Of a stretch of DNA of 64,000 bases, positions 9,501 through 52,627 are shown piece by piece (within the stretch, counting starts at the first letter, position 1; every line of letters begins with the position of its first letter). Made by a program: the position numbers and the translations under genes. Origin of the DNA: Gammaproteobacteria bacterium (GTDB lineage: Bacteria; Pseudomonadota; Gammaproteobacteria; Pseudomonadales; JAUIET01); contig JAUIHW010000015.1 in NCBI GenBank assembly GCA_030431775.1, positions 1 to 64,000 of the forward strand. Direction: 5' to 3'. The notes beneath the pieces were generated by a model. The model had not been told where the DNA came from. It was given only the letters and a program-made list of their open reading frames with translations, and searched no databases.

Positions 9501-9501
9501 C

Positions 9502-21711: not shown

Positions 21712-23889
21712 CTATTTCGTTAGCGTGGCGTCCTCGTTAGGGATGATTGTCAGCGGATAGCGTCGTTCACCAATCGATACCTGGTAATCACCGGGAGGCA
21801 GAGTAATGGCCGGACCATTCACGGTTCCGCTGGCCACGTTTTGTGCGCCGGCGTCGTAGACACTGAAGGTTGTCTGTAAGGATTGCTGCATTGCCTGACT
21901 CAGGGCGTCGGCGTCAGTCGCATCAAAATAGGCGCCGCCTCCCAGCTCCGCCCAGCGGGCGAACTCCTGCTTCAGTGCGTATTCATCTATCGCGAAGCCG
22001 ATGATGTTGATGCGAACCGCAAACCCGGAGTTTCGAAGTGCAGCAATGCTTGCTGTCGGGTCTCCATCGCAGGTTTCCTCGCCATCTGTTACCAGAATCA
22101 CCAACGCTTCTCTGGCCACACCGGCCAGGTCCTGACTGACTCTCGCCAGTGAATCGGCAATTGGTGTGCGGGCGAGATTTTTGGCCTGGATGCCATCGAT
22201 CACCGCGCTGGCCGTACTGCGGTTCAAGGGGCCCAGCGCCTGCACCAGTTCGGTATCGCAGGCATCCGGTTGCCGGTGCCCGAAAACCCGCAGCGCATAA
22301 GCGGTATTGGCGGGTAATAGCTCGTTAACCAGGCGCTTCAGTGTTTGTTTGGCGATGTTTATCCGGCGTTCGCCATCAAGTCGCTGCAACATGCTGCCGG
22401 AGGCGTCGAGAATCAGCTCGACGGCACCGAAGGCGCTGTCGGGCGTGCTGGCCTTGCTTGAAACCACCCGCAGCGTGCCGGGTTGGCGGGATGGCGTTAC
22501 AGTCAATGTCTGACTGGCCAGGGTATGTCGCTTCAGCCCGGTCAGATAATGCAGCTCATACTCACCCTGCTCCTCAGGCGCCTCTATCAGCACCGGGTTA
22601 CCGCGTCGGGTGTAGCCGTAGCTTCGGCTGTCCTTTGGATTTCCGGGAGGCGTTACGGCAATATAATCCGTTTGATTGCCGGGGCCTTCCCAGATCACCT
22701 GAAACACCTGCCCGGCTTCGACGGTGTCAGGTGCCTTCAAGCTTGCACTGGCGGGTAGAACAGTCAGTGGTGTGCGTGCAAGCACCCGGCGCTCACGGCC
22801 GGTCAGGTAGCGCAGCTCATAGGCGCCAGCGGTTTCGGACAACTGCAGTTGGCCACTGCTTCCAGTGCGGGCATACACGAAATGCTCATAATCACGGTTA
22901 TCCGCGCCCTCTGGAACGGCGGTTATATAGTCCTGATGATTGTTGGGTCCGGTCCAGGACACGGTGATGATACTGCCGGCCATTGCTTCGGCCGGCCCGC
23001 TGACACTGGCCGCTGTATCAACAATCTGCAGTGGCTCGCTGGCGAGAATATGATAACCGCCGCCAGTCGCGTTGATCAGGTAACGAATCTCGTAGTCACC
23101 GGCTATTTCGGGGAGCAGCAGCTCAACCGGATTGCCGGTTCGGGTGTATTTGTAGTTGGTATAGGCGTTGCGCTCTGCTCCCTGCTCAACCACGGTGATA
23201 AAGTCCTGCGGGTTACCCGGGCCTTCCCAATTAACAGCAAGCACACTGCCAATCGTGGCCGACGGCGTGAAACTCACTGCGGCGTCGGTCGCGGTGACTT
23301 CAATATCGGTTCGTCCAATGGTGCGATAGCTGCCGCCGGTCAGGTAACGGACTTGATACTGGCCCGGAGTGGTCGGCGCGGTCAGCTGCACCGGGTTGCC
23401 ACGCCGGGTGTTCCGGTACATGCCGTATTCACGTTCCGCTGCGTCGGCGGCAACAATGGTGATGAAGTCCTGCTTGTGGCCCGGTCCTTCCCAATGCACG
23501 TCAAAGTTTGCGCCCATGGCAACCGACTCAGGTGCCTGCACGCTGGCACTCACCGGATTCACGGTAAGCGGCAGCTTGTGCAGGGTGGGGTAGTTGCCGT
23601 CACCATCCAGCAGACGAATTTCGTAGCGGCCCGGGTTATCCGGTACCGTCAACTCCAGTTCCGCCTGGCGGGCATACACGTAATGGTCATAACCGCCCTC
23701 GGGTTTGTCCGGTGCAACAATGGTGACAAAATCCTGGCTATCGAAAGTACCGCTGATTGCCACCTTGATGTCACCACCGGCCGCGGCCGCGGCCGGCGCG
23801 CTCAGGGTTTGGGCATGCGCTGCATCGAACCCGACGCTAAAAAGCACAAAAAGAATCGACGCTAACAGCCCCTGGTATTTTTTGAACAT
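21712..23889 (-). CDS. exported vWA-domain protein with five Ig-like repeats (725 aa)
   Basis: Secreted or periplasmic protein. The signal peptide ends near AHAQ (residues 24-27). Five repeats of about 88 residues span about 28-466. Repeats 2-5 contain W-x-GPG-N/H-x-Q-x-D-F/Y-I and most end with YEIRYLTG-like strands; the first repeat is the most diverged. A von Willebrand A domain follows, with an intact MIDAS DASGSM at 495-500 and TDGEETCDGD later. A short beta-rich C-terminus ends the protein. It is the last gene of the DUF3604/alcohol dehydrogenase run, 78 bp after the third DUF3604 gene. The repeats suggest carbohydrate or protein binding; the partner is unknown. Confidence 0.85.
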   Translation of the reverse strand: MFKKYQGLLASILFVLFSVGFDAAHAQTLSAPAAAAAGGDIKVAISGTFDSQDFVTIVAPDKPEGGYDHYVYARQAELELTVPDNPGRYEIRLLDGDGNYPTLHKLPLTVNPVSASVQAPESVAMGANFDVHWEGPGHKQDFITIVAADAAEREYGMYRNTRRGNPVQLTAPTTPGQYQVRYLTGGSYRTIGRTDIEVTATDAAVSFTPSATIGSVLAVNWEGPGNPQDFITVVEQGAERNAYTNYKYTRTGNPVELLLPEIAGDYEIRYLINATGGGYHILASEPLQIVDTAASVSGPAEAMAGSIITVSWTGPNNHQDYITAVPEGADNRDYEHFVYARTGSSGQLQLSETAGAYELRYLTGRERRVLARTPLTVLPASASLKAPDTVEAGQVFQVIWEGPGNQTDYIAVTPPGNPKDSRSYGYTRRGNPVLIEAPEEQGEYELHYLTGLKRHTLASQTLTVTPSRQPGTLRVVSSKASTPDSAFGAVELILDASGSMLQRLDGERRINIAKQTLKRLVNELLPANTAYALRVFGHRQPDACDTELVQALGPLNRSTASAVIDGIQAKNLARTPIADSLARVSQDLAGVAREALVILVTDGEETCDGDPTASIAALRNSGFAVRINIIGFAIDEYALKQEFARWAELGGGAYFDATDADALSQAMQQSLQTTFSVYDAGAQNVASGTVNGPAITLPPGDYQVSIGERRYPLTIIPNEDATLTK

Positions 23890-23967
23890 GGCCAGACACT
23901 CTCCTGGGTACTTGCGATATCGCGGCGTTTATTCGTTTGACAGTCGATATGCTACCAAATTACCGGG

Positions 23968-25986
23968 CTACGGGCTGCCGCTGGTGCTTACCCAGATGGG
24001 TGAGGTCCAGGCTCGCTCCTGGATGACTGGCGAGTAAAATGGTTGCTCATCCGGGTTAAGGCAACATTTGCCGTATACATCACCCTTTGCTCCGCGTTCC
24101 TGAGCATCTGCAGTTGCAGCGTCAGCCTGTACCTGACATTGGCTTGAGAAAGGGTCTACGCCGGCGGCTTTGCATTGCCAGGTGCTCCAGCGGCAGCTGG
24201 GGTTTTCAACCACGCGAGCGTAATAGAAAGCGTTTTGTCCCTCGGTATAATTGTTATCCTGCCAGACGGCGCACAGTTCGCTGGCCCCCCGGCCGGTTGG
24301 CTGGCAACTGCTCTGGTTCACCCAGGCGCCATTGTCGGGGTTGCCGGCCACATCAAACACCTGTTCCTGGGGTTGGCCGTTGCCGTCAACCCAGCCTTTG
24401 ATGATCTGAATTCGTTGCAGGTCGGTGCCGGGGTGGCCGGCAATTCCCGGGTCTTTGCTAGCGGACACCAGAAATTGTGGGCCTTGCTCGTCGCCGTTGA
24501 TTTCAAGCTTGCCACCCATGGGTACGCCTGTTTGGTACGCCTGGGCTACCCGGTCGGGCGCTTCGCACAGGTCCTTGTCAAATTTGCTGGCGGCAAAAAA
24601 GCGTACGATCGGCCGGGTGCCGCTGGTGGCGTAAGTTTCCTTGCGCCGCATGCCGGCAAAGATTGCATCGCGGGAGTTTTCTTCAGCCCAGACCACGGCA
24701 TGGCCGCCGGGGTTGTCGAAAAAGTGGTCCTGCACGTTGCGGTAGCCGGAGTCACGCCGCCCTAAGTGGCCTTTATAATTGTCTTCCTCGGCTCCTCCGG
24801 GAGTCGCGGTGTGCGTGTCGGTGGAACCGATAAAGCCGAATTGAAAAGGGTTAACGCCGGTTTGCTTTTCCAGAGCCAAGCCGTCCTTGAGTGCATTGCG
24901 CGCCATATTTCGCCGGGCAAAGTCTTCGATGGCGACCGGTGCTGCCCGATCGGTCGCGACTTCGCCGTGCAATGTGCCCAGCATACTCAGGTTGTCAGCG
25001 AAGGCTTGCTCAAAGTCGCACAGCTCATCTTCGGTATCCACGCCAATTCCGCGTAACCGGTCAAAGCGGCATTCCGAGCTGGCCTTGTGCTGGGTCAGTT
25101 CAATCACAGGCTCAAAAAACAGTCGGTTTTGTGCCTCAAGCGCGCTCTCCGGATCGCGAAACATCAGGCCGCCCGCGAGGTTGGGGTTGTGCGGGATCGC
25201 CAGCACATCGCAGCCGGTACCTGCTTCTATGCATTGCTCGCGTAGCTTTACCCACAGTTCAGGGAAGTTGTACGAGCCGGTGTCGTAGGTGGATATCGCT
25301 TTCTCGGTTACCTTTTCATTGCGAAAAATCACGTTCCGGTGCATGTTTTTGTGTTCGGGCGCATCGGTGTATTCGTATCCCACGAAGGTTGTGAATTCAC
25401 AGGCCGAGCTGCGGTCATAATGGTCCTCGGCCGCCTGTTGGATTTTTTGCCAGTAATCGGTATGTCCGGCATCACAGTCTGACAGGGTGCAGGCAAAGCT
25501 CTGATCGCCACCCGGTGTGGTGACCGCACGGCTGGCCCACCAGTTGGCCGCCAACAACTGAACAATATAGATATCGGACCGGCTCATGATGCAATGTGGC
25601 CACCAATAGCCGAGTTTGCTGGAATCTTCAGTGCAAACATTCATTGGGCCAAGTAATTCCGAGTGGTCGGTCACCGCAGTAAAATCCAGCGGCCGCTGAA
25701 TTTGCGCAATCACCGTTTGCTTGCCGTCCTCGTCAGGAATGGTAATCGGCTCGCCTTTGGCATAACGATAGGCGCCCCAGGGGTCATTGCGTTGACTTGA
25801 CACATAAGAGTCGAACGAATAGCGCGTGTGTACATGCAGGTCGCCAAACATTGGTTGGCGCAATGGATCGTAATCAGCGCAGGGTTCGCGTTGCTCGGTG
25901 CGCTCGAAGGCGAGTGTCGTGTTCGTGACAGGTAGCAAAAGAAAAAGGATGGTGACCACTCGGGCTAATGTCCATATGACAGGCAT
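23968..25986 (-). CDS. DUF3604 protein, PHP-like metal motifs, Cys-rich subtype (672 aa)
   Basis: Third DUF3604 gene of the run. The start at 25986 is favoured by AGGA 8 bases upstream and gives a signal peptide MPVIWTLARV...NTTLAFE; an upstream ATG at 26019 has no ribosome site. Metal-type motifs occur in PHP order: FGDLHVH (His51, His53), VTDHSE (Asp107, His108), GYEYTDAP (Glu205), IPHNPN (His266) and GSTDTHT (Asp390, His392). The tail is ERAWTSPIW. About 15 cysteines suggest disulfides in the periplasm. DUF3604 is a family of unknown function. A metal-dependent hydrolase acting outside the cytoplasm is inferred from the motifs. Confidence 0.88.
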   Translation of the reverse strand: MPVIWTLARVVTILFLLLPVTNTTLAFERTEQREPCADYDPLRQPMFGDLHVHTRYSFDSYVSSQRNDPWGAYRYAKGEPITIPDEDGKQTVIAQIQRPLDFTAVTDHSELLGPMNVCTEDSSKLGYWWPHCIMSRSDIYIVQLLAANWWASRAVTTPGGDQSFACTLSDCDAGHTDYWQKIQQAAEDHYDRSSACEFTTFVGYEYTDAPEHKNMHRNVIFRNEKVTEKAISTYDTGSYNFPELWVKLREQCIEAGTGCDVLAIPHNPNLAGGLMFRDPESALEAQNRLFFEPVIELTQHKASSECRFDRLRGIGVDTEDELCDFEQAFADNLSMLGTLHGEVATDRAAPVAIEDFARRNMARNALKDGLALEKQTGVNPFQFGFIGSTDTHTATPGGAEEDNYKGHLGRRDSGYRNVQDHFFDNPGGHAVVWAEENSRDAIFAGMRRKETYATSGTRPIVRFFAASKFDKDLCEAPDRVAQAYQTGVPMGGKLEINGDEQGPQFLVSASKDPGIAGHPGTDLQRIQIIKGWVDGNGQPQEQVFDVAGNPDNGAWVNQSSCQPTGRGASELCAVWQDNNYTEGQNAFYYARVVENPSCRWSTWQCKAAGVDPFSSQCQVQADAATADAQERGAKGDVYGKCCLNPDEQPFYSPVIQERAWTSPIWVSTSGSP

Positions 25987-26097
25987 TTCTGGTTTCCTAT
26001 GCGACTGTTCAGGCCGCAAGCATACACAAAGTGTCGAGATGGCAGGGCAGTGGCGTGTGAACGTCCGGTAAGGTCGCCAGTGGCTTCTTGCTAACCG

Positions 26098-27933
26098 CTA
26101 TGGCTTATACCACACCGGTGAGGTGTACGCGCGTTCCTGAATAGTGGAGGGTATTCCCTCAGGATGCGCTTGCTGCAGTGCAATACTGTCGTAAAGCGAA
26201 TGCCTGGGAGTGGGTATTTGCAGCACTCTGGCGTAGTAAAAAGCGGCCTGCTCCGGGTTAAACTCCGGGTCGGTCCATACAGTCTGCAGGTGGGCGCTGC
26301 CAATGGAGTTGCTGTATTCAGCGCTGGCCAGATCAACACTGTTGCCTACCGCTGGCAGCTTGCCGTGCCGGTCAGGTTTACGGTCATCGGAGGCCGCCAC
26401 GTTGAATATTTTTTCCCTGGCCTGACCGTCACTGTCGAGCCAGCCTTTAACGATCTGAATGCGGTCGAGGTTGGCGCCTTTCGGGTCACGAGCCGCATCG
26501 ATCAGAAAGCTGGGTGCTGAGTTGTGGCTGGCTTTGAGCAGCTCGCCACCCATTGGTACGCCCTTGCGGTAGCCAACGGCCGCAAGGTTGGCTTCATCAA
26601 GGTCGCCTGCTGTGAACTCCCAGCCGGCAAACAGACGCACCTGAATCCGTGGCCCCGTGCTGGCATACACCTCTTTGCGCTGGAACGCGGCAACGATCGC
26701 TTCGCGGCTATTGTTTTCCGCCCACACAGCGGCCAGCCCGGATGCCGAATAATCCCAACCCGTAGGGCCGCTGTTACCGCTGCGAGTCTTGGGCCCGCGT
26801 TCGGGGATCGAGTCCAGAGCCATCTTGCCCTGAAAGTTGTTTTCTTCTGCGGATGCCAGGCTGGTGTGCGAATCCGTCGAGCCGATCATACCGAACTGAT
26901 AGGGGTTTGTACCCAGGGTGTTGCCAAGTTCCAGACCACGCAGTAGCGCGCTGCGGGCGTAGTCGCCGGCCGTTACGGTTGCGGTTTTGTCCGTATCCGG
27001 GCGGGCATCGATCAAGAAGCGATAGCGTTCAAAGTCAGCGAATTCGTCCTCGGGAGACAGTAGGGGATGGGTCTCGGAATCGCCCTTGATCTGTGTGACT
27101 TCGGCCACCGGCTCCCATTTATTTCGCAGACGAGCGTAGTCTGCGGAAAGCGCTTTATCGAACGAGTCCAGTAAGGGGAACATCCGGCCTTTTGACAGAT
27201 TCATGTTGTGTGGGATCGCAACAAAGTTGGCACCCACATCATCGGCAGTTGTCGCCAGCCAGGCCCACAGGTCTTCCGGATGAATGCTGTCGAGCATGCT
27301 GAAAGGCAGAAAGCTGGCTGCCGCGGTTGCATCACCGTCCATGAAAACCACGCGATGCAGATTGGCGGCATTCGGAATTGATGACCATTCCCAGCCGATC
27401 AAGGCGGTGAAAACGCCCGGTTGATTATGGTTATCAGCCGCGGCGGCAATTTCCCGCCAGGGCTTTTGCCGTATTGTCTCGCTGTTTAGCGACGCCAGCA
27501 CGCTTGCGTCCCCGGTGTTCGCGCCTGCTACCAAAGAATGAAACAGCTCGGCTTCTTTTCCCTGCTTCAGCAGCTGTATTGCCTGGCGGCCAAAATCGGT
27601 CGCCAGCATCTGCTCATCACCTTCAAAAAGGCGTTTAGGCACCGCGGTGAGTTCGGCATGGTCGGATATCACCAGAAAGTCCAGCGGCGTTTCAATTTGA
27701 ACGCGGGCGCGATGAAAGGGGTGTACCACAGGCAAGCCCCTGGCATAACGAAATGCAGTGTCAGGGTCGGCGGAACGGTTTTGAAACAGAAAGGCATCAA
27801 AGGAATAGCTGCTGTGCAGGTGGGTGTCCCCCCACAGCAGTTGGGTTTCTGTGTCGGCGATGGCGGCGAGGCAAAGCAGTCCGCACAGTAGGCCTGCGCC
27901 AATTGCTTTGTGCTTGGGTCGCAGACCAGTCAT
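26098..27933 (-). CDS. DUF3604 protein, PHP-like metal motifs (611 aa)
   Basis: Second DUF3604 gene of the run. Three close starts exist (27942, 27939, 27933). Only 27933 places AGGA at a normal distance, and its product begins MTGLRPKHKAIGAGLL with a signal peptide ending near AIAD. The upstream starts overlap the preceding stop. Motifs are WGDTHLHSS (His38, His40), ISDHAE (Asp91, His92, Glu94), GWEWSSIPN, IPHNMN, GSTDSHTSL and the tail ERAYTSPVWY. It belongs to the same subtype as the genes at 27939 and 50510. Tight linkage to a DUF3604 paralogue and to a periplasmic alcohol dehydrogenase suggests joint action on one substrate class. Confidence 0.88.
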   Translation of the reverse strand: MTGLRPKHKAIGAGLLCGLLCLAAIADTETQLLWGDTHLHSSYSFDAFLFQNRSADPDTAFRYARGLPVVHPFHRARVQIETPLDFLVISDHAELTAVPKRLFEGDEQMLATDFGRQAIQLLKQGKEAELFHSLVAGANTGDASVLASLNSETIRQKPWREIAAAADNHNQPGVFTALIGWEWSSIPNAANLHRVVFMDGDATAAASFLPFSMLDSIHPEDLWAWLATTADDVGANFVAIPHNMNLSKGRMFPLLDSFDKALSADYARLRNKWEPVAEVTQIKGDSETHPLLSPEDEFADFERYRFLIDARPDTDKTATVTAGDYARSALLRGLELGNTLGTNPYQFGMIGSTDSHTSLASAEENNFQGKMALDSIPERGPKTRSGNSGPTGWDYSASGLAAVWAENNSREAIVAAFQRKEVYASTGPRIQVRLFAGWEFTAGDLDEANLAAVGYRKGVPMGGELLKASHNSAPSFLIDAARDPKGANLDRIQIVKGWLDSDGQAREKIFNVAASDDRKPDRHGKLPAVGNSVDLASAEYSNSIGSAHLQTVWTDPEFNPEQAAFYYARVLQIPTPRHSLYDSIALQQAHPEGIPSTIQERAYTSPVWYKP

Positions 27934-27938
27934 GCGCA

Positions 27939-29774
27939 TCATTCCTGTTTAGCGGGGTGATACCAGATGGGGGATGTGTAAGCGCGCTCCTGGGTGATCA
28001 TCGGTACTTCGTCACTCATCGCAACCCCGAAGCGTTTGGCGTCATAGGCTGTCCAGCGCGGAGTCGGAATTTCCAGGACACGCACATAATAGAATGCTGA
28101 TAGATCGGGATTGAAATCCGGGTCCTGCCAGTCGGTTTGCAGTTGAGCGGCTCCAATGGTGTTGCTGTAGCTGGCGTCGGCAACGTTTACCGTATTGCCT
28201 ACCGGGGGCAATTTACCGTTCCGCTTCGCTTTGCGGTCTCCGGACCAGACCACGTCATACACTTTCTCCTCGCTGTCGCCATCGGCATTCAGCCAACCCT
28301 TGACCACCTGAATGCGGTCCAGGTTGGCGCCGATCGGGTCTTTGGCCGCGCTGATCGAGAATACCGGAGCGGGCTGTTTGGCTGTACCGTGCAGCTCGCC
28401 ACCCATTGGCACCTGTTGTTCTGCGTAGTTGGCGGCAAAGCGCACCAGTATTCTCGGGCCGGTGGTTGCGTAGGTTTCCTTGCGCATCATTGCGTCGAAG
28501 ATGGCTTCGCGGGTATTTTCTTCAGCCCAGACAGCGGCGTATCCGGACGCGGCCATCTGCCAGCCCAGGGTTATAAAGTCACCCACTTTGCCCAGTTCAC
28601 CTGACCAACGCCCTGCGGCAGGCTCCATGTAGCTCATCTTGCCGAAGAAGTTATCTTCCTCGCCAGTGGCCAGGGCGGTATGACTGTCAGTGGAACCGAC
28701 CATGCCGAACTGGTAGGGATTGGTGCCAAACTGCTGTTCCAGTTGCAAGCCGCGGCGCAGAGCGGCGCGGGCGTATTCAAACGGAATCATTTCCTTGGTT
28801 TTCTTGGTGCCGGCAAAATTGGCGCGGTCCCAGGTTTCATAGTCGGCAAATTCATCGTTTTTTGATAACAGCGGGTGGGTTTCCCCATCCCCTTTGATCT
28901 GGGTGACCTCGTACAAGGGCTCCCAGCGGGCCCGCGCTTCCACATACGCCGCCGTCATCGGTTTACCAAATTCCGTGCTTGTCTCCGGAAACATGAGCCC
29001 GTTGCTGATGTTGCCATTGTGCGCAAGCGCCAGTACTTTGCCACCGGTCTGTTGCTCATAATCCGCCATCCACTGCCACAGCTGTTGCGGGTCTGTGCTT
29101 TCTATCGTCGTGTGCGGAAGTTTCTGACCGGCCTGCTCGGCGCCATCGCGGTACAGCACGTTGCGGTGCAGGTTGCTGCCATTCGGGCCGGAGGTCCATT
29201 CATAACCGATGATCGCGGTGAACCGGCCGGGCTCGTTGTAGGCTTCAGCCGTGGCGATGTATTCGCCCCAGACTGATTCAAAGAAGCCACGGTCAAACAG
29301 CATGTCCGGTGCGTTACCCAGGGTCAGTGCAGTCATCACTTCCATGCGGGTTTTCAGAGCCGCAGCGCCGGTTTCATTGTTCAAGCGCCGATTCCAGTCG
29401 GCCACCACGTCGTTTGCCATGAACTCTTTATTGCCAGCGATTATTTCGGACATGGTACCCATGGCGTCGGAATGGTCGGAGACCACCAGAAAGTCCAAGG
29501 GCCGGGACAGCTTGACCCGCAAACCGTGGGTGGACGTGATCTCCTCACCACGAGCAAAACGGTAGGCGTCTTCGGGATCCAGCTGCACACCAAAAGCCCG
29601 CGCATCCAGCGACAAGGTAGTGTGCAAGTGCGTGTCCCCCCACAGTACGCGCTTGTTATCAGCGCTGGTTGAATAGGGGGAAAAGCTATTGCCCTGCGGT
29701 TCGGCACTCGGTGCTTGGCTGGCCAAAATACCGGCCAGCGTGATGGCGCTCAGCGCGCTCAGTTTGTTGAGCAT
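27939..29774 (-). CDS. DUF3604 protein, PHP-like metal motifs (611 aa)
   Basis: First DUF3604 gene of the run, 16 bases after the alcohol dehydrogenase stop. The ATG at 29774 has AGAGGA 7 bases upstream and yields a signal peptide MLNKLSALSAITLAGILASQ; longer in-frame versions overlap the upstream gene. Motifs are WGDTHLHTT (His49, His51), VSDHSD (Asp100, His101; Asp where paralogues have Glu), GYEWTSGPNG, LAHNGN replacing the usual IPHN, and GSTDSHTAL. The tail is ERAYTSPIWY. Between the HxH and DH motifs lies DPEDAYRFARGEE, shared with the gene at 50510. Catalytic function is inferred only from the motifs. Confidence 0.88.
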   Translation of the reverse strand: MLNKLSALSAITLAGILASQAPSAEPQGNSFSPYSTSADNKRVLWGDTHLHTTLSLDARAFGVQLDPEDAYRFARGEEITSTHGLRVKLSRPLDFLVVSDHSDAMGTMSEIIAGNKEFMANDVVADWNRRLNNETGAAALKTRMEVMTALTLGNAPDMLFDRGFFESVWGEYIATAEAYNEPGRFTAIIGYEWTSGPNGSNLHRNVLYRDGAEQAGQKLPHTTIESTDPQQLWQWMADYEQQTGGKVLALAHNGNISNGLMFPETSTEFGKPMTAAYVEARARWEPLYEVTQIKGDGETHPLLSKNDEFADYETWDRANFAGTKKTKEMIPFEYARAALRRGLQLEQQFGTNPYQFGMVGSTDSHTALATGEEDNFFGKMSYMEPAAGRWSGELGKVGDFITLGWQMAASGYAAVWAEENTREAIFDAMMRKETYATTGPRILVRFAANYAEQQVPMGGELHGTAKQPAPVFSISAAKDPIGANLDRIQVVKGWLNADGDSEEKVYDVVWSGDRKAKRNGKLPPVGNTVNVADASYSNTIGAAQLQTDWQDPDFNPDLSAFYYVRVLEIPTPRWTAYDAKRFGVAMSDEVPMITQERAYTSPIWYHPAKQE

Positions 29775-29790
29775 GATTGTATCCTCTGTA

Positions 29791-31905
29791 CTATTGTTGC
29801 CCGGCGTAGACGCGGTTCGCTTCCGACAACACATATTGCCGGACGGCTTCCGCGTCTTCGGCTGAAATGTACTCTTTGAAGCCAACCATACCGACCGGGC
29901 TCAATACACCATCGATAACAATGTCTTGCCAAATATTGTGTATACCTTCGCTGGAATAACGCAGGTCCGGCGTGAGGCCACCCGTGCGCAGGCCGTCGCC
30001 GTGGCAATAAGCGCAATGGCGCTGATAAATGACCTGTCCGTGCTGGACAGTCTGCGCGCTCGCCGTCACGGCCGCCGGCTTTGGCATTTCTTCCAGCGTA
30101 TCTTCCGGTTCCGGTAATTCATGCGTTCCGCCAAGCTTGTAAACCAGTACTCGTGAGCGGTTTGGTATCTTCCAATGGTGCGCAAGCGCACCTCCCTGAG
30201 CACCGAAGCCACCGCCGAAGCCGACCGCTATGGCCACATACTGCACGCCATCAATCGCGTAACTGATGGGGGCTGCCATCGCTCCTGTCTGAGTATGGTG
30301 CGACCACAGCTCAGCGCCGGTCTCGGCGTCGTGCGCGGTCAGGTTGCCATTCTTGCCGCCCTGAAACACCAGCAGGCCAGCGGTGCTCAGAGTACCCCCC
30401 ATCGTGGGTCGCTGCGGAGGCTGAACCCAAGCCTGTTCCTGCTTGACCGGGTCCCAGGCCAATAGCTGCCCACTGTATGACGCATCCAGCAGCGCGTTGA
30501 TCTCATTGACCGAGGCCGGAGGTGGAGCCATGCCCATATTGTCGAAGCCCAGGTGCCAGTAACCCTGGTTGGGTTTTTTATCGATGTCTCGAGTGGGCGC
30601 CAGATAGGTGGACGGAAACACCATCATTGGGAAGTACACCAGGCCGGTTTGCGGGTTGTACGACATGGGTGGCCAGTTATGGCCGCCACCCATGCTGGGA
30701 ATAACCGGTTTCTTGCCATCGAATACGCGCGCGCCGTCCGTTTCCACCGGTCTGCCCGTGGCCATGTTGACTCGTTCCGCCCAGGTGACGGTGGTGTATT
30801 TCTCCGCCGAGATCAACTCGCCATTAGTGCGGTCAAGCACATAAAAAAAGCCGTTTTTCGGTGCCTGCATCAGCACCTTGCGCAGCTTGCCGGCGATTTC
30901 CAGGTCGGCCAGCATAATATGCTGGGTGGCCGTGAAGTCCCAGGTTTCGCCAGGGGTGGTCTGGTAGTGCCAGACGTATTCGCCGCTGTCCGGTTTTAGG
31001 GCAACAATTGAGGCCAGAAACAGGTTGTCGCCACCTTCCGGGCTGCGCAACGATTGGTTCCACGGTGAACCGTTTCCAACACCGATATAAAGCAGATCCA
31101 ACTCGGGGTCGTACACCATGGAATCCCACACGGTGCCACCGCCGCCCCATTTCCACCATTCTCCGCTCCAGGTTTTGGCGGCCATTTCCATCACATCGTT
31201 TTCAAAGCCGTCGGCCGGATTTCCGGGAACCGTGTAAAAGCGCCAGGCCTGCTTGCCGCTGGCAATGTCGTAAGCGGTGACGTAACCACGAACACCCAGT
31301 TCCGCGCCACCGTTGCCGATGATTACCTTGTCGCCGGCGATTACCGGGGCGCCGGTAATCGTATAGGATTGTTCACGGTCGGTGGTTTGCACGTCCCAAA
31401 CCACGGCGCCATCGTTAGCGTCAAGCGCAATCAAGCGGCCGTCATAGGCGCCGACAATGATTTTGCCATCAGCATAGGCCACTCCGCGATTCACTGCATC
31501 GCAGCAACCCTTGGCAAGAAAAGAACGATCGACCTGAGGGTCATAAAACCATTTCTGTTCGCCAGTGACCGCATCCAGCGCGTACACCATTGACCAACTG
31601 CCAGTGACGTATAGTGTGCGGTTTATCATCAGCGGCGTGGCTTCCACGCCACGGCGGGTGGTCATATCGAACGACCAGTGCAGCCCAAGCTCGGCCACGG
31701 TACTGCGATTGATCTGGTCCAGGCGAGAGTAGCGCTGTTCTTTCCAGTCGTTGCCGTGCCCGGTCCATTCAACGGTTTCGCTCGCAGCTGCTGCCTGCTC
31801 TGCCACAGTGCCAGCTTTTTGTGTTAAGCGTTCCTCGGTTTGCTCTGTGCCTGAGCCGCAGGCCGTTAATACAGAAAGGACTATCAGCGGGGCGAATCTG
31901 CGCAT
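29791..31905 (-). CDS. PQQ-dependent quinohaemoprotein alcohol dehydrogenase, lipoprotein (704 aa)
   Basis: Periplasmic alcohol oxidation passing electrons through PQQ to a fused haem c. The ATG at 31905 (GGTGA upstream) gives a lipoprotein signal MRRFAPLIVLSVLTAC with Cys16; a TTG start 12 bases upstream is less likely. The propeller carries the vicinal cysteines Cys134-Cys135 (AKGCCDAVN) typical of PQQ alcohol dehydrogenases, and Glu88. A C-terminal cytochrome c domain has CAYCH at about 631-635. It is 21 bases after the aldehyde dehydrogenase gene and directly before three DUF3604 genes. Relatives oxidise primary alcohols; the natural substrate here may be released by the DUF3604 proteins (inference). 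Confidence 0.92.
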   Translation of the reverse strand: MRRFAPLIVLSVLTACGSGTEQTEERLTQKAGTVAEQAAAASETVEWTGHGNDWKEQRYSRLDQINRSTVAELGLHWSFDMTTRRGVEATPLMINRTLYVTGSWSMVYALDAVTGEQKWFYDPQVDRSFLAKGCCDAVNRGVAYADGKIIVGAYDGRLIALDANDGAVVWDVQTTDREQSYTITGAPVIAGDKVIIGNGGAELGVRGYVTAYDIASGKQAWRFYTVPGNPADGFENDVMEMAAKTWSGEWWKWGGGGTVWDSMVYDPELDLLYIGVGNGSPWNQSLRSPEGGDNLFLASIVALKPDSGEYVWHYQTTPGETWDFTATQHIMLADLEIAGKLRKVLMQAPKNGFFYVLDRTNGELISAEKYTTVTWAERVNMATGRPVETDGARVFDGKKPVIPSMGGGHNWPPMSYNPQTGLVYFPMMVFPSTYLAPTRDIDKKPNQGYWHLGFDNMGMAPPPASVNEINALLDASYSGQLLAWDPVKQEQAWVQPPQRPTMGGTLSTAGLLVFQGGKNGNLTAHDAETGAELWSHHTQTGAMAAPISYAIDGVQYVAIAVGFGGGFGAQGGALAHHWKIPNRSRVLVYKLGGTHELPEPEDTLEEMPKPAAVTASAQTVQHGQVIYQRHCAYCHGDGLRTGGLTPDLRYSSEGIHNIWQDIVIDGVLSPVGMVGFKEYISAEDAEAVRQYVLSEANRVYAGQQ

Positions 31906-31926
31906 CTTGGTCACCAAATTGCTTAT

Positions 31927-33366
31927 TTAACTTTTCATTTTCAGCAGTGTATTGAACACCTTGTCTGCAAATTTACCGTACGGCGGTGCCAGGTATTTCA
32001 TGGCTGTAAAACCGGCCTGGTAAAACACCGGGCGCATCTTCGAGCAGGCAACAAAACCTTCATAGCCGTGGTAGTGGCCCATGCCGCTGGGGCCTACGCC
32101 ACCAAAAGGCAGGTCGTGCTGGGCGACATGAAACAGGGCGTCGTTCACTGTGACGCCACCGGACATAATGCGTTCTATGTAGTGGTCGGCCAGCTCTTTA
32201 TTGTTGGTAAACGGGTACAGCGCCAGCGGCCGGTCGTGGGCGTTTACGTAAGCGATCACTTCCTCCGCTGTGTCATAGCTCAGCACCATCAGCAAGGGCC
32301 CGAATGTTTCGCGCTGGCGTATGGTCATGTCGTCGGTGGTGTTCAAAACAAGCTGCATGGGTATCTTGCGTGCCTCGATATTGGCTTGCTGTCCGCCACA
32401 GATGTTAACCAGAGTCGCACCTTTTGCCTGGGCGTCTTCCATAGTATCCAGCAGTCGTTGAACGCTGCGATCATCGATAATCGAGGTATAGTCCTTGTGA
32501 TTAATGTCGGGGCAATGCGCGGCACCATAGGCTTTTGCTTGCGCGACGAACTCGTCAATTTGACTATGGTGCACGAAGACATAGTCGACGTTGGTACAGA
32601 TTTGCCCTGCGTTGAACTGCTTGACAAACAGAATCCGCTCAACCGCTTTCTTGAGCGGGTACTGCGGGTCAATAATTGCCGGTGCCTTGCCACCCAGTTC
32701 GAGGATTACCGGAGTCAGGTTCTGTGCGGCCGACGCCATCACCGCCCGGCCGGTTTGTCCCGAGCCTGTGAAAATCAACAGGTCGAACGGCAGTTTGGAA
32801 AATGCTATTCCGACACCGCCGGTTTCCTCAAAAAAGGCGAGTTTGTCGGCTGGGAAATACTTCGGACTCAGCTCGATCAACAGTCTGGTCAGAGCAATGG
32901 AGTTTTCTGACATCTTAACCATGGCGCGATTACCCGCGGCAAACACGGCACACAACTGTGAAAAACTCAAATTGATCGGGAAGTTCCAGGGAATGATCAG
33001 GCCCACCACGCCAAGCGGCTGCGGAATGACCCGATTCTTGCCGCCGGCGAACATACTGACATCCACATGCCGTTTCTGCACCTTCATCCATTTTTTCAGG
33101 TGTTTGACGGTATCATTGATGCCATCAGTGACCGAGATGACTTCGGCGAACAGGGTTTCGTGCCGTGAGCGGTTGCCATAGTCGGCGCTGATGGCGTCGA
33201 CGATGGCGTCCACGTTCTCGCTGAGCATGCGCTTCAGCGCCAGCAGATCTTCCTTGCGCTGCTGGTAGTCGGGGTAGGGGTGCTCGAGATAGGCAGCGCG
33301 TTGCGACTCCAGTGAGCCGAACAACTGACTGTCGATCTCACTGGGCGCATTAATCGCTGTGTTCAT
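31927..33366 (-). CDS. aldehyde dehydrogenase, coniferyl-aldehyde-dehydrogenase-like (479 aa)
   Basis: Cytosolic NAD(P)-dependent oxidation of an aldehyde to an acid. Landmarks are PWNFPINLSF, FTGSGQTGRAVM (cofactor loop), LELGGKAPAI with Glu223 and FNAGQICTNVDYV with the nucleophile Cys257. The overall sequence, including GHYHGYEGFVACSKMRPV near the end, matches the coniferyl/fatty aldehyde branch (class 3-like, under 500 residues). It is in one run with the PQQ alcohol dehydrogenase, giving a plausible alcohol-aldehyde-acid route split across the inner membrane. The aromatic name reflects similarity, not proven substrate. Confidence 0.9.
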   Translation of the reverse strand: MNTAINAPSEIDSQLFGSLESQRAAYLEHPYPDYQQRKEDLLALKRMLSENVDAIVDAISADYGNRSRHETLFAEVISVTDGINDTVKHLKKWMKVQKRHVDVSMFAGGKNRVIPQPLGVVGLIIPWNFPINLSFSQLCAVFAAGNRAMVKMSENSIALTRLLIELSPKYFPADKLAFFEETGGVGIAFSKLPFDLLIFTGSGQTGRAVMASAAQNLTPVILELGGKAPAIIDPQYPLKKAVERILFVKQFNAGQICTNVDYVFVHHSQIDEFVAQAKAYGAAHCPDINHKDYTSIIDDRSVQRLLDTMEDAQAKGATLVNICGGQQANIEARKIPMQLVLNTTDDMTIRQRETFGPLLMVLSYDTAEEVIAYVNAHDRPLALYPFTNNKELADHYIERIMSGGVTVNDALFHVAQHDLPFGGVGPSGMGHYHGYEGFVACSKMRPVFYQAGFTAMKYLAPPYGKFADKVFNTLLKMKS

Positions 33367-33383
33367 TGCAGTACCCTTTAACC

Positions 33384-34235
33384 TTAGAAGTTATACCGGG
33401 CAACCAGCTCCCAGGTGCGTGGCGGATCGATGTGCTTGAAGTAGGTCTGGTCAAAACCGAACGCTCCCAGCGGCACGTCATTGCCCCAGGTGAAAGTTTT
33501 TTCGTCCGTCAGGTTTTTACCAACCAGGGCCAGCATCCAGCCGCTGTCAAGCGATGCCAGGGCCAGGCGTGCATTCAGCTTGCCATAACTGTCCTGAATC
33601 AGGTTGACGTCCTGGTCTGCACCGACAATCACATCGTCGGACCAGTTGTAATCGATATTGGTGGTCAGCTCCATACTGCTGCCCAGGCTCACGACGTACT
33701 CCAGGCCGATATTCGCGGTGTATTCAGGTGCGAACTGCAGTTGTGCGCCGGACAGGTCCTGCACACAGGCCCGTGAGCCGGTGGCGGCTGCCGCGGCGAG
33801 GATCTGGTCCACATTACAGGCCGCATTCGGGAACGACTTGTACTCAGCATCCAGGTAGGCAACCGCTGCATTCACGGTTAATGCGTCATTGACCGCAAAC
33901 ATAAGGTCGGCTTCAACGCCTCGCACTTCGGTTTCGGCTGCGTTGCCCACGACAAAAGCCGCGTTGCCGTCGAACGTACTGACCTGTACGTCTTCGTACT
34001 CGCTTTGGAAGATAGCGGCGTTCAGTCGGCCGCGGCCATCGGCCAGGGTGAACTTGCCGCCGATCTCAACGGTCGTAACGGTTTCGTCTTCGAACTGCGC
34101 AATATCGTCCAGCTCTCCGCTCGGTGTTACTTCTATTTCACGGCCCAGCGAGTTGTCTTCATCAAAGCCACCGGCTTTGTAGCCATTGCCCACTTCCAGG
34201 TACAGCATGGCATCGTCATTCACAAGTTCGGCCAC
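33384..34235 (-). pseudogene. C-terminal half of a broken TonB-dependent receptor
   Basis: Barrel end of a TonB receptor, from VNDDAMLYLEVGNGYKAGG to the terminal WELVARYNF, whose final Phe is correct for outer-membrane insertion. The reading frame differs from the N-terminal half at 34216-35244 and overlaps it by 20 bases; its apparent first codon is GTG inside the coding stretch. It cannot be exported alone because it has no signal peptide. Together with the N-terminal half it represents one receptor that lost about 150 residues of barrel and the reading frame. It could also be an assembly error. It lies 18 bases before the aldehyde dehydrogenase gene. Confidence 0.8.
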
Positions 34236-35244
34236 GGCTCAGAAAACTGAGTGGGCTATAGTCCGAATCCAGTGAGTTAGTGAACTCGTATTCGGTAAAA
34301 GCGGTGATGGAGCGCAGCGTGTGTTCGCCAATCGCCCAGTCTGCCGTTAGCTGGTACGCTGAAGACTCGGTGTCGTCGAAAAGCCCACGCTCCGGAAAGT
34401 TCAGGTCGTATTGCTGGTAATCGAAACCGGCCTGAAAATTGGGTGAACCAAAGGCCTGGTAAAGCGCCGTGGCTGTTGGGCTGGCCAACGGAATGTTCTG
34501 CTGGCGGCCCAGCACGTCGAACTGGCCGCTCTCGGCCTTGAAGGTCAGGCTCAGGTTTTCGGACACATCCCAGGCCAGGGAGCCGCGCACGTACAGGTTA
34601 TCCTGCTGCGGGCCGTCTTCGCCACCGACGGCCAGGTTTTCCACGTAGCCGTCATCGTCGTATTTCTTGACGGCCAGGCGTCCACGAACATTGTCAGAAA
34701 ACGGGCCGGACACAACCGCGGTAATACCGATGCCTTCCAGCTCGGTGCGGTAGCTGGCCTCAACATAGGCCTCAAATTCATCGGTGGGTTGAGCCGTGGT
34801 GATATTGATGGCCCCGGCGATGGTGTTTTTACCGAACAAGGTGGATTGCGGACCCTTCAGCACCTCAACCCGCTCCAGGTCCAGGAACTTGCCGCGTGCG
34901 CTGCGGCCACGGCCGTAGTACACGCCATCCACAAAAGTGCCCACCGACTGCTCAAAGCCGTAGTTGATGCCGGAGCCAATGCCACGAATAAACAGCTGGG
35001 TGCCCGCACCACCTTCCGCCACGTGAACATTGGGCAGGTAGGGTGTCATGTCTTCCAGGTTGGTCAGGGCTTTTTCTTCAATTTGTGCACCACTCATCAC
35101 CGAAATGGCAATGGGCACGTCTTGCAGGCCTTCGGCGCGCTTGGTGGCGGTCACTACCACCTCCTCAAGCATCTGGGCCGACGCGGTCTGGGCCAGGGTA
35201 ATGGCAAATGCCAGGGCCGATAGAGCAAAAGGTTTACGGTACAT
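34216..35244 (-). pseudogene. N-terminal half of a broken TonB-dependent receptor
   Basis: Signal peptide MYRKPFALSALAFAITLAQ, TonB-box-like LEEVVVTATKRAEG, complete plug (LFIRGIGSG, VEVLKGPQSTLFGKNTIAGA) and the first barrel strands up to RSITAFTEYEF. The frame then runs into stop after SPLSFLSRGRTCE. The ATG at 35244 has AGAGGA 7 bases upstream. Compared with the intact 738-residue receptor at 9502, the segment from about residue 345 to 500 is missing. A secreted plug with part of a barrel would not be functional. It heads the dehydrogenase/DUF3604 run and is divergent from the AraC regulator, so it was probably the importer for that system. Confidence 0.8.
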
Positions 35245-35346
35245 GGGCGTTTCCTCTGTAGCGGATGTGAGTATGGCTGCCTCAAGGCGGCTCATTGTTA
35301 GGTGGCGCGGATGATAGTGCTTTAGCGCGCACTTTTATAGGCTTTC

Positions 35347-35455: not shown

Positions 35456-36466
35456 ATGACAGCTACTGTACGGGTTGCCGTGCTTCGCGGCATTGATCGA
35501 ATCCTGACCGAGCTTGGTGGCAACGCCGAGCGGCTCTGTGCGGATTGCGGTTTCGACCTGCGCCTCCTGGATGACCCCAATGCACTGATGCCGTATGAGG
35601 TGCTCGTTGAGCTGCTGGAATACTGTTCGGAGCAATTGCAATGCCCGGATCTGGGACTCAAAGTCGCCATCAAGCAGGATATTGATGTGCTGGGCCCGCT
35701 GGCGCTGGCGATGCAAAACTCCGACACCATGGCCGAGGCCATGCATTGTGCGGCCGCTTATATGTACGTTTTGACCCCGGCGATGCAATTGAACATAACG
35801 CCACTTGGCAGTGAGACCAAAGTCGGCCTGGCGATCCGCTTGCCAGGACTGCAAGCCCATCAGGCGCGCCAAACTTATGATAAAACGGCCGCTCTGACGC
35901 ATCGGGTGATGAGCTTACTGGCCAAAGACGCCTATCAACCCATTTCGGTGGCCCTGCCGCACGAACCGTTGTGCAAACCAGAAGTGTACCGCGAGTATTT
36001 CGGTGTGCCCGTGCATTTCAATGCCGACCGGGTGGAACTGCTGGTACCCACGGAATGCATGGAAATCAACCTGGAGTCCAGCAATGCCCACATCAAGCAG
36101 ATTGCTCTGGACTTTTTGCGCAGCGAAAAACCTGCTGCCAATGCCAGCATTAGCGAACGGGTGGAGCAGGTGATTTTAAGTACCCTGGGCACCGAAAGTT
36201 GTAATCGCGATGATATTGCCGCTGTGTTGAGTATGCACCCGAGAACCCTGCAGCGTCACCTGGATGCTGAAGGCGTAAGCTTTAACGAATTGCGCGACCA
36301 GGTGCGCAGGGGCCGCGCTGATTACTATGTACGCGAAACACGCATTCCGCTGTGTCAGGTGGCGGCCATGATCGGTTACAGCGACCAGACCATACTCACC
36401 CGCAGTTGCCGGCGCTGGTTCGGTGCAACACCACGCCAGCTGCGCATCAATAGTGCGGCCGGTTGA
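35456..36466 (+). CDS. AraC family transcriptional regulator (336 aa)
   Basis: DNA-binding regulator with an N-terminal arabinose-binding-type domain (about 15-200; LMPYEVLVELLEYC, DIDVLGPLALAMQNS) and a C-terminal AraC helix-turn-helix pair (about 235-330). The latter includes LSMHPRTLQRHLDAEGVSFNE and PLCQVAAMIGYSDQTILTRS, ending in FGATPRQLR. Length and layout match OruR-type AraC proteins that often control alcohol, alkane or amino-acid breakdown. It is divergent from the receptor/dehydrogenase/DUF3604 run and is followed on its own strand by a short membrane gene and another DUF3604 gene. It is therefore the likely regulator of both arms. Confidence 0.9.
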   Translation: MTATVRVAVLRGIDRILTELGGNAERLCADCGFDLRLLDDPNALMPYEVLVELLEYCSEQLQCPDLGLKVAIKQDIDVLGPLALAMQNSDTMAEAMHCAAAYMYVLTPAMQLNITPLGSETKVGLAIRLPGLQAHQARQTYDKTAALTHRVMSLLAKDAYQPISVALPHEPLCKPEVYREYFGVPVHFNADRVELLVPTECMEINLESSNAHIKQIALDFLRSEKPAANASISERVEQVILSTLGTESCNRDDIAAVLSMHPRTLQRHLDAEGVSFNELRDQVRRGRADYYVRETRIPLCQVAAMIGYSDQTILTRSCRRWFGATPRQLRINSAAG

Positions 36467-36663: not shown

Positions 36664-38772
36664 ATGAAAAAGTTATTCCTGGGCCTGGTGGTCTTAATCG
36701 CCCTGGTGTTGCTTGCTGCCTGGTTAGTGGGGTCGGCCAGCTTTGTGAAACAACCCCAAGCCAAAGCCACGCTCAACGAGCCCAATCCAGGCTTGGCGGC
36801 CACAGATACAGCCGGCTCGGAAATTCTGTTCGGTGATTTGCATGTGCACAGCAACTACTCGATGGACGCGGCGATTTTTTCCACACCAATGATGAAGAAC
36901 ACCGGCTACCGAACGCCGGTGGATGCTTGCCACTTCGCTCGTTATTGCGCTGGCCTGGATTTCTGGAGTATCAACGACCACGCTGAGGGATTGGCACCGT
37001 GGCAGTGGCAGGCTACTAAGGAGGCGGTGCGCCAGTGCAATGCCAATGCCGACTCGATGGTGGCCTTTCTGGGCTGGGAGTGGAGTCAGGGCGGCCCGGT
37101 TGACTCGCACTGGGGCCACAAGAACGTTATTTTGCGCGGCCTGGCCGACGATGAAGTGCCCACCCGTCCCATCGGCTCCGGAGACAAAAATATCTGGCGG
37201 GTCATCGGCCAGTCACCCGCCGTGGTGCGTGGCTTGGCGCTCATGGCAATGAGCCGTCTGAACCTGTCGGACTACCAGACACTGGCCCAGCATTTGCAAT
37301 CCACCGCCGACACCCCGCCTTGTGCATCGGGCGATGTGCGCGAGTTGGGCGCAGATTGCCACGAAACGGCCAGCACTCCGCAGGAACTCTTCGAGCGGCT
37401 CGATCAATGGGGTTTCGATGCCCTGGTGATTCCCCATGGTCTGGCCTGGGGCACCACCAACCCGACCGGCGCAGATTTTCAGGTGCAGATGAACCAGTTG
37501 AACAGCCGCTACCAGCGCTTGCTGGAAGTGTACTCCGGGCATGGGAATTCCGAAGTTTACCGCGATCTGGAGCAAGTAACTTCGGCGAGTGAGTCCTGTG
37601 CGGCACCCTCTAACGGTTATATGTCGTGTTGCTGGCGCGCCGGGGAGATTATTGAGAATCGGTGTCGTGCCAATGGCGGCAATGATTGTACCGACCGTGC
37701 CGCAGAAACGCGGCGCCTGTACCTGGAAGCCGTGCAAGCCGGCTCTCCCTTGCACTCCCCGCTGTCCGTCGTGCCGGGTGCCAATGCGGATGATTGGGGG
37801 CAATGTGACCAGCTGGTCGGTGCCTTTCAGCCCGCACACAATTACCAGCCGCGCCAGTCTGCGCAATACATACTGGGCTTGGGCGACAAAGACTCCGAGC
37901 GCTTTCGGCCCGGCTTCATCGCGGCCAGCGATATTCATACTGCTCGGCCGGGCATTGGCTATAAGGAAACGGCACGCTTCCACTTTACCGATACCAAGGA
38001 TACCGGCCGGCGAGCGCTGTTCGATCCATCAGCCGATCGGCCTCAGGAAGTTCAGAAATACAGTATGTTCGATGTGGAAGATGGAAAAGATGCGTTCTAC
38101 TTTACCGGCGGGCTGGTGGCTGTACACAGCAATGGTCGCGACCGCGATGCCATTTGGGATGCGCTCTATCAGCGCCGTGTGTATGGCACCTCCGGGCCAC
38201 GCATCAAGTTGTGGTTTGAGCTTGAAGGCGAAAACGGCAGTCTTCATCCGATGGGCAGTGAGCTTAAATTGGCCGGCGAACCCATATTCCGCGTGCGTGC
38301 CCAGGGCAGTCTGAAGCAGCTGCCAGGCTGCCCCGACCATGCGGTCGAGGCGCTCGGTGAGGCGGGTGTCGCTGATTTGTGCCGCAATGAATGCAATAAC
38401 CCCGGCAATGAAGCGTACCGTATTGAGCGCATTGAAGTTGTGCGCATCCGGCCGCGGCAAAGCGGTAGTGAGCCGCTCAGTTCACGCATTGATGACCCAT
38501 GGAAGGTACTGCCTTGCGAGTCTGCACAGCAGCAATGCGAAGTCAGCTTTAGTGACCCGGCTTATGCCCAGGCCGGCCAGGAAACACTGTACTACGTGCG
38601 AGCAATCCAGGAAGCAAGTGTCGCTATTCAGGGTGACCCAATGAATTGCCAATTTGATGAAAATGGCCAGTGTGTCCAAACCAATTATTGCCTGGGCGTG
38701 GAGCCTGAAGAAAACTGTTTGAGCCCGACACAACACCGCGCCTGGTCGTCACCAATCTATCTCAACCCCTAA
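36664..38772 (+). CDS. DUF3604 protein, divergent Cys-rich subtype (702 aa)
   Basis: Fourth DUF3604 gene, on the strand opposite to the run of three. An N-terminal hydrophobic segment (MKKLFLGLVVLIALVLLAAW) lacks a clear cleavage site and may be a membrane anchor. Motifs are FGDLHVHSNYS (His60, His62), INDHAE (Asp105, His106, Glu108), GWEWSQGG, IPHGLAWG (no Asn) and AASDIHTARPG. The tail is HRAWSSPIY. About 18 cysteines and inserts between the metal motifs make it the most distant of the five. It converges with a TMADH-type gene 10 bp away. Placement behind the AraC gene suggests it belongs to the same regulon. Confidence 0.88.
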   Translation: MKKLFLGLVVLIALVLLAAWLVGSASFVKQPQAKATLNEPNPGLAATDTAGSEILFGDLHVHSNYSMDAAIFSTPMMKNTGYRTPVDACHFARYCAGLDFWSINDHAEGLAPWQWQATKEAVRQCNANADSMVAFLGWEWSQGGPVDSHWGHKNVILRGLADDEVPTRPIGSGDKNIWRVIGQSPAVVRGLALMAMSRLNLSDYQTLAQHLQSTADTPPCASGDVRELGADCHETASTPQELFERLDQWGFDALVIPHGLAWGTTNPTGADFQVQMNQLNSRYQRLLEVYSGHGNSEVYRDLEQVTSASESCAAPSNGYMSCCWRAGEIIENRCRANGGNDCTDRAAETRRLYLEAVQAGSPLHSPLSVVPGANADDWGQCDQLVGAFQPAHNYQPRQSAQYILGLGDKDSERFRPGFIAASDIHTARPGIGYKETARFHFTDTKDTGRRALFDPSADRPQEVQKYSMFDVEDGKDAFYFTGGLVAVHSNGRDRDAIWDALYQRRVYGTSGPRIKLWFELEGENGSLHPMGSELKLAGEPIFRVRAQGSLKQLPGCPDHAVEALGEAGVADLCRNECNNPGNEAYRIERIEVVRIRPRQSGSEPLSSRIDDPWKVLPCESAQQQCEVSFSDPAYAQAGQETLYYVRAIQEASVAIQGDPMNCQFDENGQCVQTNYCLGVEPEENCLSPTQHRAWSSPIYLNP

Positions 38773-52486: not shown

Positions 52487-52627
52487 GGGGAACTCCTGGT
52501 CGGTTTGCCAGCAGTTTACTACCGCTGGTCCTGTCCACAGCTTACAAAATTGGAAGTCCGTCACATTACTGTCTAATCTGATCAAAATATGATCAGTTCT
52601 TGCTAGGCTACAACATAAGGAGTAAGG

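Follow-up and report, generated by a model that had tools for sequence, protein, structure and literature searches.

The window analysed here, 64,000 nucleotides from a gammaproteobacterium of the order Pseudomonadales (assembly GCA_030431775.1, contig JAUIHW010000015.1, positions 1 to 64,000), contains a run of genes that all lie on the minus strand and encode a broken TonB-dependent receptor, an aldehyde dehydrogenase (ALDH), a pyrroloquinoline quinone (PQQ)-dependent alcohol dehydrogenase (PQQ-ADH), three exported DUF3604 proteins designated DUF_C, DUF_B and DUF_A, and a vWA protein, in this order according to open reading frame (ORF) calls and Pfam (Table 1). The DUF3604 family is widespread and barely described, and a fold, a metal site and partners would make it a class of exported metalloenzymes that is open to testing. 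DUF3604 proteins are predicted to adopt the fold of PHP-type metal hydrolases and carry an invariant set of presumed metal ligands, and their genes are linked across eight named phyla to genes for a PpiC-type prolyl isomerase and a HupE/UreJ-2 permease. The link with the two dehydrogenases is local.

An initial annotation of this DNA had described the gene order, the single strand, the short gaps or overlaps, the broken receptor and a divergent AraC gene, and all of these features were confirmed by the ORF calls and Pfam; the start of the receptor ORF, which had been placed at 35244, lies at 35295. The genes are most tightly spaced from the receptor through DUF_B, with gaps of 17, 9 and 16 nt down to DUF_C, the last counted from the DUF_C ATG at 29774, and a 4-nt overlap between DUF_C and DUF_B. 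DUF_B and DUF_A are separated by 111 nt (78 nt if DUF_A begins at an upstream TTG, from which its ORF extends to 26019), and DUF_A and the vWA gene by 78 nt. The DUF_C ORF likewise extends from an upstream TTG to 29885. A promoter and terminator scan was uninformative as to co-transcription, since it returned three promoter-like sites against 7.1 expected and 20 terminator-like sites against 16.3 (sd 4.1).

Table 1 Features of the gene run and further genes of the window
Feature	Position	Strand	Evidence
TonB-dependent receptor, plug fragment (broken gene)	34216..35295	-	PF07715 73.6 bits
TonB-dependent receptor, C-terminal barrel fragment (broken gene)	33384..34235	-	PF00593 86.1 bits
ALDH	31927..33366	-	PF00171 257.5 bits; orthologue (82%) in the other species of the genus
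PQQ-ADH with C-terminal cytochrome c domain	29791..31917	-	TIGR03075 619.6 bits; PF01011 256 bits; PF13442 36.9 bits
DUF_C, exported DUF3604 protein with predicted PHP and Ig-like domains	27939..29774	-	PF12228 767 bits; model mean pLDDT 90.3
DUF_B, exported DUF3604 protein	26098..27942	-	PF12228 767 bits; ligand set as in DUF_C
DUF_A, exported, more diverged DUF3604 protein	23968..25986	-	PF12228 535 bits; model pLDDT 74.6
Exported vWA protein with 264-nt repeats	21712..23889	-	PF13519 25.4 bits (cut-off 27)
AraC-type regulator, divergent from the run	35456..36466	+	PF12625 115.6 bits; PF12833 56.8 bits
Diverged DUF3604-like protein, putative PHP protein	36664..38772	+	PF12228 104 bits; profile comparison with DUF3604 E 4.7e-37
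DUF_D, canonical DUF3604 protein outside the run, adjoins secDF	50510..52585	-	PF12228 769 bits

The three proteins of the run, DUF_D and the protein encoded at 36664-38772 all exceed the PF12228 gathering score of 20.4 bits. This genome (G000), which comprises 4.67 Mb in 121 contigs and is 98.3% complete, contains 16 full-length DUF3604 loci, and two fragment matches on contig C28 (L021, G000:C28:42351-42751) apparently represent a decayed copy. The other species of the genus, G001, has at least 13 DUF3604 genes and three of the diverged kind, as judged from the 19 of 26 candidates that were scored. Overall, at least 536 DUF3604-encoding stretches were confirmed, and the family is present in 19 of the genomes of 56 relatives, this genome included, and in seven of 143 genomes drawn from the class. 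A lone passing mention of DUF3604 was found in the open-licence PubMed Central (PMC) literature, a table row in a list of transposon mutants that assigns the 622-aa Chlamydia trachomatis protein CT_425 to the family (PMC11925237), and no mention of PF12228 was found in that literature.

The initial annotation had placed the DUF3604 proteins among the PHP-type metal hydrolases, and both the predicted fold of DUF_C and DUF_A and the invariant ligand set support this class. The motifs occur in the PHP order in each of the three proteins (HLH/DH/LAH/STDSHT, HLH/DH/IPH/STDSHT and HVH/DH/IPH/STDTHT), and all three have an apparent signal peptide when inspected by eye. The structure prediction that had been proposed as a check was performed for DUF_C using AlphaFold with 32 family members (pTM 0.89). 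In the resulting model, residues from about 41 to 440 resemble PHP structures and residues 441-611 form an Ig-like sandwich. The best structural matches are 3e38 (Z 15.9) and 2anu (Z 15.5), both at 3.6 Å, over 235 and 213 residues, respectively, followed at lower scores by 7rty PsfC and endonuclease Q (12.6) and then by DNA polymerase III alpha chains and RNase AM; we take all matches ranked 1 to 16 to be PHP-bearing chains. Foldseek also returned 3e38 as the top match (E 1.8e-7). The DUF_A model is of lower confidence, with some stretches below 50, and matches the same two structures (3e38, Z 16.0; 2anu, Z 15.8). PHP fold models were made for these two proteins, and DUF_B is 46-47% identical to DUF_C.

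Nine presumed metal-ligand positions, H, H, D, H, E, H, H, D and H, arranged as HxH(x5)D, H, E, H, H and DxH, are invariant in all 132 full-length DUF3604 proteins (those of more than 560 aa and more than 300 bits from the surveyed loci). Their assignment to the PHP metal site relies on the order of the motifs and on their spacing, for which the rule is that of E. coli YcdX. The residues R281, K294 and R336 are likewise invariant in the 132 proteins, which would fit an anionic substrate.

The neighbourhood of DUF3604 genes was surveyed in the 80 named loci that are most similar to DUF_C among the at least 536, and 78 of these, from ten named phyla, were counted together with 13 loci of this genome, 11 of G001 and ten others of the order. 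Genes were called by a custom script, L024, L041, L100 and L105 were dropped because the DUF3604 gene was lost in calling, and many of the named loci stem from metagenome bins, which may be mislabelled. Within 4 kb of the DUF3604 gene, a PpiC-type prolyl isomerase occurs in 39, a HupE/UreJ-2 permease in 34 and a sulfatase in 15 of the 78 named loci. The isomerase (PF13145) is encoded on the DUF3604 strand in 38 of its 39 loci, 27 times downstream and 11 times upstream, and lies within 200 nt of the permease gene (PF13795) in 33 of them; both identities were established by Pfam on example proteins. The isomerase-bearing loci span eight named phyla, five of which are represented by one locus each. 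In the 45 loci with more than 4 kb on both sides, the isomerase is found 27 times and the permease 22 times. When near and far genes were compared, taking genes as independent, the p values were 5e-11 for the isomerase, 2e-8 for HupE, 0.013 for the sulfatase, 0.20 for AraC, 0.87 for the TonB-dependent receptor and 0.96 for ALDH. The linked permease carries its PF13795 domain behind an N-terminal domain, and the apparent mature N-terminus is His in 32 of the 40 HupE proteins from all surveyed loci and Asp in seven, with one lacking a match, according to a motif that was chosen post hoc and applied without a signal-peptide predictor.

The partners also co-occur with DUF3604 at the level of genomes. 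Among the 56 relatives, the isomerase was detected in 16 of the 19 genomes with DUF3604 and in one of the 37 without (p 3.7e-10). Of the 16 genomes having both, 14 encode the isomerase no more than 0.6 kb away from a DUF3604 match. The cut-off for HupE is exceeded in 17 of the 19 genomes with DUF3604 and in 13 of the 37 others (p 9.7e-5). The isomerase profile was built from five sequences of four of these relatives (G001, G010, G019 and G046), and the counts without the source genomes, made by hand, are 12 of 15 and one of 37. In the survey of 143 genomes from the class, which shares this genome alone with the set of relatives, DUF3604 and the isomerase each occur in seven genomes, five of which have both, two DUF3604 only and two the isomerase only (p 9.3e-7; 1.4e-5 without this genome). 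The p values for co-occurrence and linkage ignore kinship. In the open-licence PMC literature, nothing was found that pairs HupE UreJ with a peptidyl-prolyl isomerase, or a PQQ-dependent alcohol dehydrogenase with a PHP domain. The partnership of a foldase and a metal-capture-like permease with DUF3604, which is absent from the initial annotation, is the more interesting result of the analysis.

The single isomerase match of this genome adjoins its single HupE/UreJ-2 match on contig C120 (L145:6536-8624). This locus is collinear with a locus of G001 (L030) in 17 of 18 genes, and the unmatched gene is a DUF3604 gene adjoining the isomerase. Because DUF3604 beside the isomerase-HupE pair is common elsewhere, we infer that the gene was more likely lost at C120 than gained in G001. 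The retention of the pair alongside 16 dispersed DUF3604 genes fits a service in trans, and likewise persistence alone or another role.

A family-wide link between DUF3604 and dehydrogenases did not emerge from the neighbour survey that the initial annotation had proposed, and the survey outcome that it had named as a refutation is thereby reached at the level of the family. PQQ-ADH occurs within 4 kb in none and ALDH in one of the 78 named loci, and the TonB-dependent receptor and AraC in two and six, respectively. The 13 loci of this genome have PQQ-ADH and ALDH in two cases each, the TonB-dependent receptor in four, AraC in three and a sulfatase in one. For the 11 loci of G001, PQQ-ADH, isomerase, HupE and sulfatase were counted once each, and for the ten other loci of the order the isomerase and HupE four times each, the sulfatase twice and the TonB-dependent receptor, ALDH and AraC once each. 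Among the PQQ-ADH matches listed for 145 genomes of the order (at most seven per genome, with neighbours checked in 16 stretches), five full-length orthologues of at least 65% identity were found besides that of the run, one of which (G001, contig C20) is located beside a DUF3604 gene. Two further cases are a partial PQQ-ADH in G031 (58%), 1.4 kb away from a diverged DUF3604 gene, and one of lower similarity in G114 (54%), where a DUF3604 gene is located at a distance of about 3 kb. In this genome, three of the nine PQQ loci taken are within 6 kb of a DUF3604 gene (p 0.006) and also three within 10 kb (p 0.018), two within 5 kb (p 0.047) and one within 2 kb (p 0.19); three rows on contig C87 were left out as BamB-like. 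About nine PQQ-dehydrogenase genes are present, and in view of the pqqE and pqqC searches described below the organism possibly relies on scavenged PQQ. A second pairing of DUF3604 with PQQ-ADH is common to both species (L011 and L024); the DUF3604 protein of L024 is the best match of that of L011, at 62% identity, and their genes lie near a cassette of TonB receptor, glutathione S-transferase and PQQ genes. The PQQ gene of L024 is about 2.4 kb from DUF3604, and as this locus was outside the neighbour count, the PQQ count for G001 is too low. The link between DUF3604 and dehydrogenases is therefore local and modest, not family-wide.

Comparison with G001 indicates which part of the run is old. 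The corresponding stretch (L026) encodes a receptor, ALDH, PQQ-ADH (69% identical), two WS/DGAT proteins and the orthologue of DUF_C (76%). The wax-ester-synthase-like WS/DGAT pair (L026:5609-8752) is inserted between PQQ-ADH and DUF3604, and TonB receptors flank the stretch on either side. The two receptor pieces of the run match 16776-17876 and 18453-19262 of L026, where a related receptor is encoded, and about 190 codons between them are absent. Since the core is kept in G001, the arrangement of ALDH, PQQ-ADH and DUF_C predates the split of the two species. Beyond the DUF_C orthologue follow genes for an Abhydrolase_3 esterase, an FAD-linked oxidase, a small protein and a D-2-hydroxyacid dehydrogenase. 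Clustering placed further WS/DGAT genes near DUF3604 in L040, and inspection by eye did so in L016.

The orthologues of DUF_B (72%) and DUF_A (77%) are located elsewhere in G001, and the three copies of the run fall into three clades of the tree, where each has its own G001 orthologue as sister (FastTree local support only). With dispersed DUF_A and DUF_B orthologues and three separate clades, the three genes seem to be old paralogues that came together in this lineage, and the run of three is not a conserved unit. A recent tandem duplication can be ruled out, because the proteins are 35-47% identical to each other and each is sister to a different G001 locus. A conserved operon with the vWA gene was also ruled out, as matches were obtained in three of the 56 genomes, including this one; the match in G001 (42% over part of the protein) is away from DUF3604 and that in G017 is weak. 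The vWA protein contains 264-nt (88-aa) repeats ahead of its vWA domain and gave no match in a PHROGs search, and its link to the other genes of the run appears doubtful.

Taken together, the DUF3604 trio may be periplasmic, metal-dependent ester hydrolases that locally feed an alcohol oxidation and are generally matured by a foldase and a permease, a view to which we give about an even chance. In this scheme, for which we infer catalysis, substrate class, order of steps and metal delivery, the DUF3604 proteins would be exported to the periplasm, where a membrane-anchored prolyl isomerase would assist their folding. HupE/UreJ-2-type permeases are thought to import metals, and the HupE protein might help to supply or guard the metal. 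The substrate would enter the periplasm and DUF_C would cleave an ester bond, as DUF_B and DUF_A probably would in related substrates. An oxyanion ester is a plausible substrate because a sulfatase or alkaline phosphatase adjoins the DUF_C relative in five of the eight closest named loci (L049, L050, L053, L054 and L056), although three of these are from Ruegeria and hence not independent. The alcohol released would next be the substrate of PQQ-ADH, a lipoprotein-like quinohaemoprotein that clears the curated cut-off of 480 bits of the methanol/ethanol-type model TIGR03075 and has a lipobox-like LTAC by eye. A cytoplasmic ALDH would complete the oxidation of the aldehyde. The initial annotation had called the pathway periplasmic; no signal peptide is visible by eye in ALDH, and therefore periplasmic oxidation is limited to the first step at most. 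The pathway draws local support from the conserved ALDH, PQQ-ADH and DUF_C genes, whereas the linkage of DUF_B, DUF_A and the vWA gene is not kept. Thus, the gene run had been observed correctly, the hydrolase class is well backed by prediction, and the pathway is plausible but local, with catabolism as its likeliest role.

A broader proposal is that DUF3604 enzymes are clients of a dedicated periplasmic module, consisting of the PpiC-type foldase and the metal-capture permease with its N-terminal His, in at least eight phyla, and that one pair serves many paralogues in trans, such as the 16 of this genome. We advance it tentatively and rate it somewhat below even odds.

Several observations weigh against these proposals. 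The Pfam PHP model (PF02811) does not match the three proteins, which yielded only PF12228 at E 0.001, and searches by sequence revealed no solved relative, not even at E ≤ 1 with the 32-row family profile; one match to a solved structure for DUF_B and four for the 36664-38772 profile were rejected as spurious. Neither the isomerase nor HupE is present near any of the 13 DUF3604 loci examined in this genome, the run included. G015, G027 and G031 carry DUF3604 without a detected isomerase and G011 shows the reverse, half of the named loci have no isomerase nearby, and HupE is also common without DUF3604. Regarding the local pathway, the TonB receptor gene upstream of ALDH is broken into two ORFs, the link with PQQ-ADH does not extend beyond the genus and is of modest strength here, and the nearest PQQ-ADH of G001 (78%) has no DUF3604 gene in the 20 kb examined. 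Moreover, no pqqE over the cut-off was detected in this genome and no pqqC in either species, although no control passed the cut-off in either search, so that absence is not established.

Some of these points would also follow if the DUF3604 proteins, as PHP hydrolases, served a general purpose in the periplasm and adjoined ALDH and PQQ-ADH only incidentally, as some of 16 copies in one genome will come to lie next to any gene. The absence of PQQ-ADH from the named loci, the separate location of the DUF_A and DUF_B orthologues and the weak PQQ enrichment in this genome are in line with this explanation, but it accounts poorly for the core kept in G001, for the gaps of 9-16 nt in this genome and for a second pairing in both species, and we regard it as rather unlikely. 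A role as CehA/McbA-type hydrolases of carbamates or xenobiotic esters is improbable. In its favour, the proteins are exported, DUF_A (18.7 bits) and DUF_C (24.8 bits) match NF038032 weakly, and a TonB receptor gene is located upstream of cehA in one strain (PMC8292978). However, these matches are far below the cut-off of 80 bits, DUF_B gives none, and the copies, which in two species of the genus are scattered over the family tree, have the look of old, native genes. CehA is missing from the structural match lists, which excludes nothing. Finally, the proteins could have kept the PHP fold merely to bind metals or other ligands without being enzymes, which would suit the linkage with a metal-capture-like permease. 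The invariance of the nine ligands and of R281, K294 and R336 is what would be expected of a working active site, and this explanation appears the most remote of all.

Other genes of the window complete the picture. DUF_D has the same position in G001 (L027). The 36664-38772 protein contains many conserved cysteines and has three relatives in G001 at 42-58%; its score against NF038032 is 31.3 bits and hence also below the cut-off. A relative of its gene on contig C117 of this genome (L022) is split into two ORFs. The region 4762-17400 looks catabolic, with genes for an amine oxidase, a luciferase-like monooxygenase, an HMG-CoA reductase, a TonB receptor, an HxlR regulator, an RPE65-type oxygenase, an AMP ligase and a thiolase.

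The PHP metal-dependent phosphoesterases are among the closest known systems. The predicted DUF3604 fold and the order of the ligand motifs are shared with 3e38 (BVU_3505), whose title names two domains, one of them PHP-like, 2anu (TM0559) and 7rty (PsfC). In contrast to these, DUF3604 proteins are larger and exported and have invariant R, K, E and Q residues of their own, and identity in the structural alignments is 14-16%. The CehA/McbA family also belongs to the PHP proteins and consists of exported ester hydrolases, to whose profile DUF_A, DUF_C and the 36664-38772 protein have the weak matches given above. Periplasmic carbamate hydrolases set a precedent for exported ester hydrolysis (PMC8292978). 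A further precedent is Sb-PDE from Sphingobium TCM1, a secreted, zinc-containing PHP phosphodiesterase that cleaves phosphate diesters (PMC5460133). By its description, Sb-PDE resembles DUF3604 in its signal peptide and PHP domain and differs in having 441 aa and a Pfam PHP domain. For the permease, the closest counterparts are the anglerase Ang-1-HupE/UreJ-2 proteins, recently described metal-capture proteins that are marked by an N-terminal His; neither DUF3604 nor the isomerase is named in the accessible portion of that text (PMC12537917). The linked permeases resemble them in combining PF13795 with an N-terminal domain and may also do so in the His seen at the apparent mature start in 32 of 40 cases. 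If the proposed partnership holds true, the anglerase permeases would gain a concrete client and the DUF3604 family its first testable handle.

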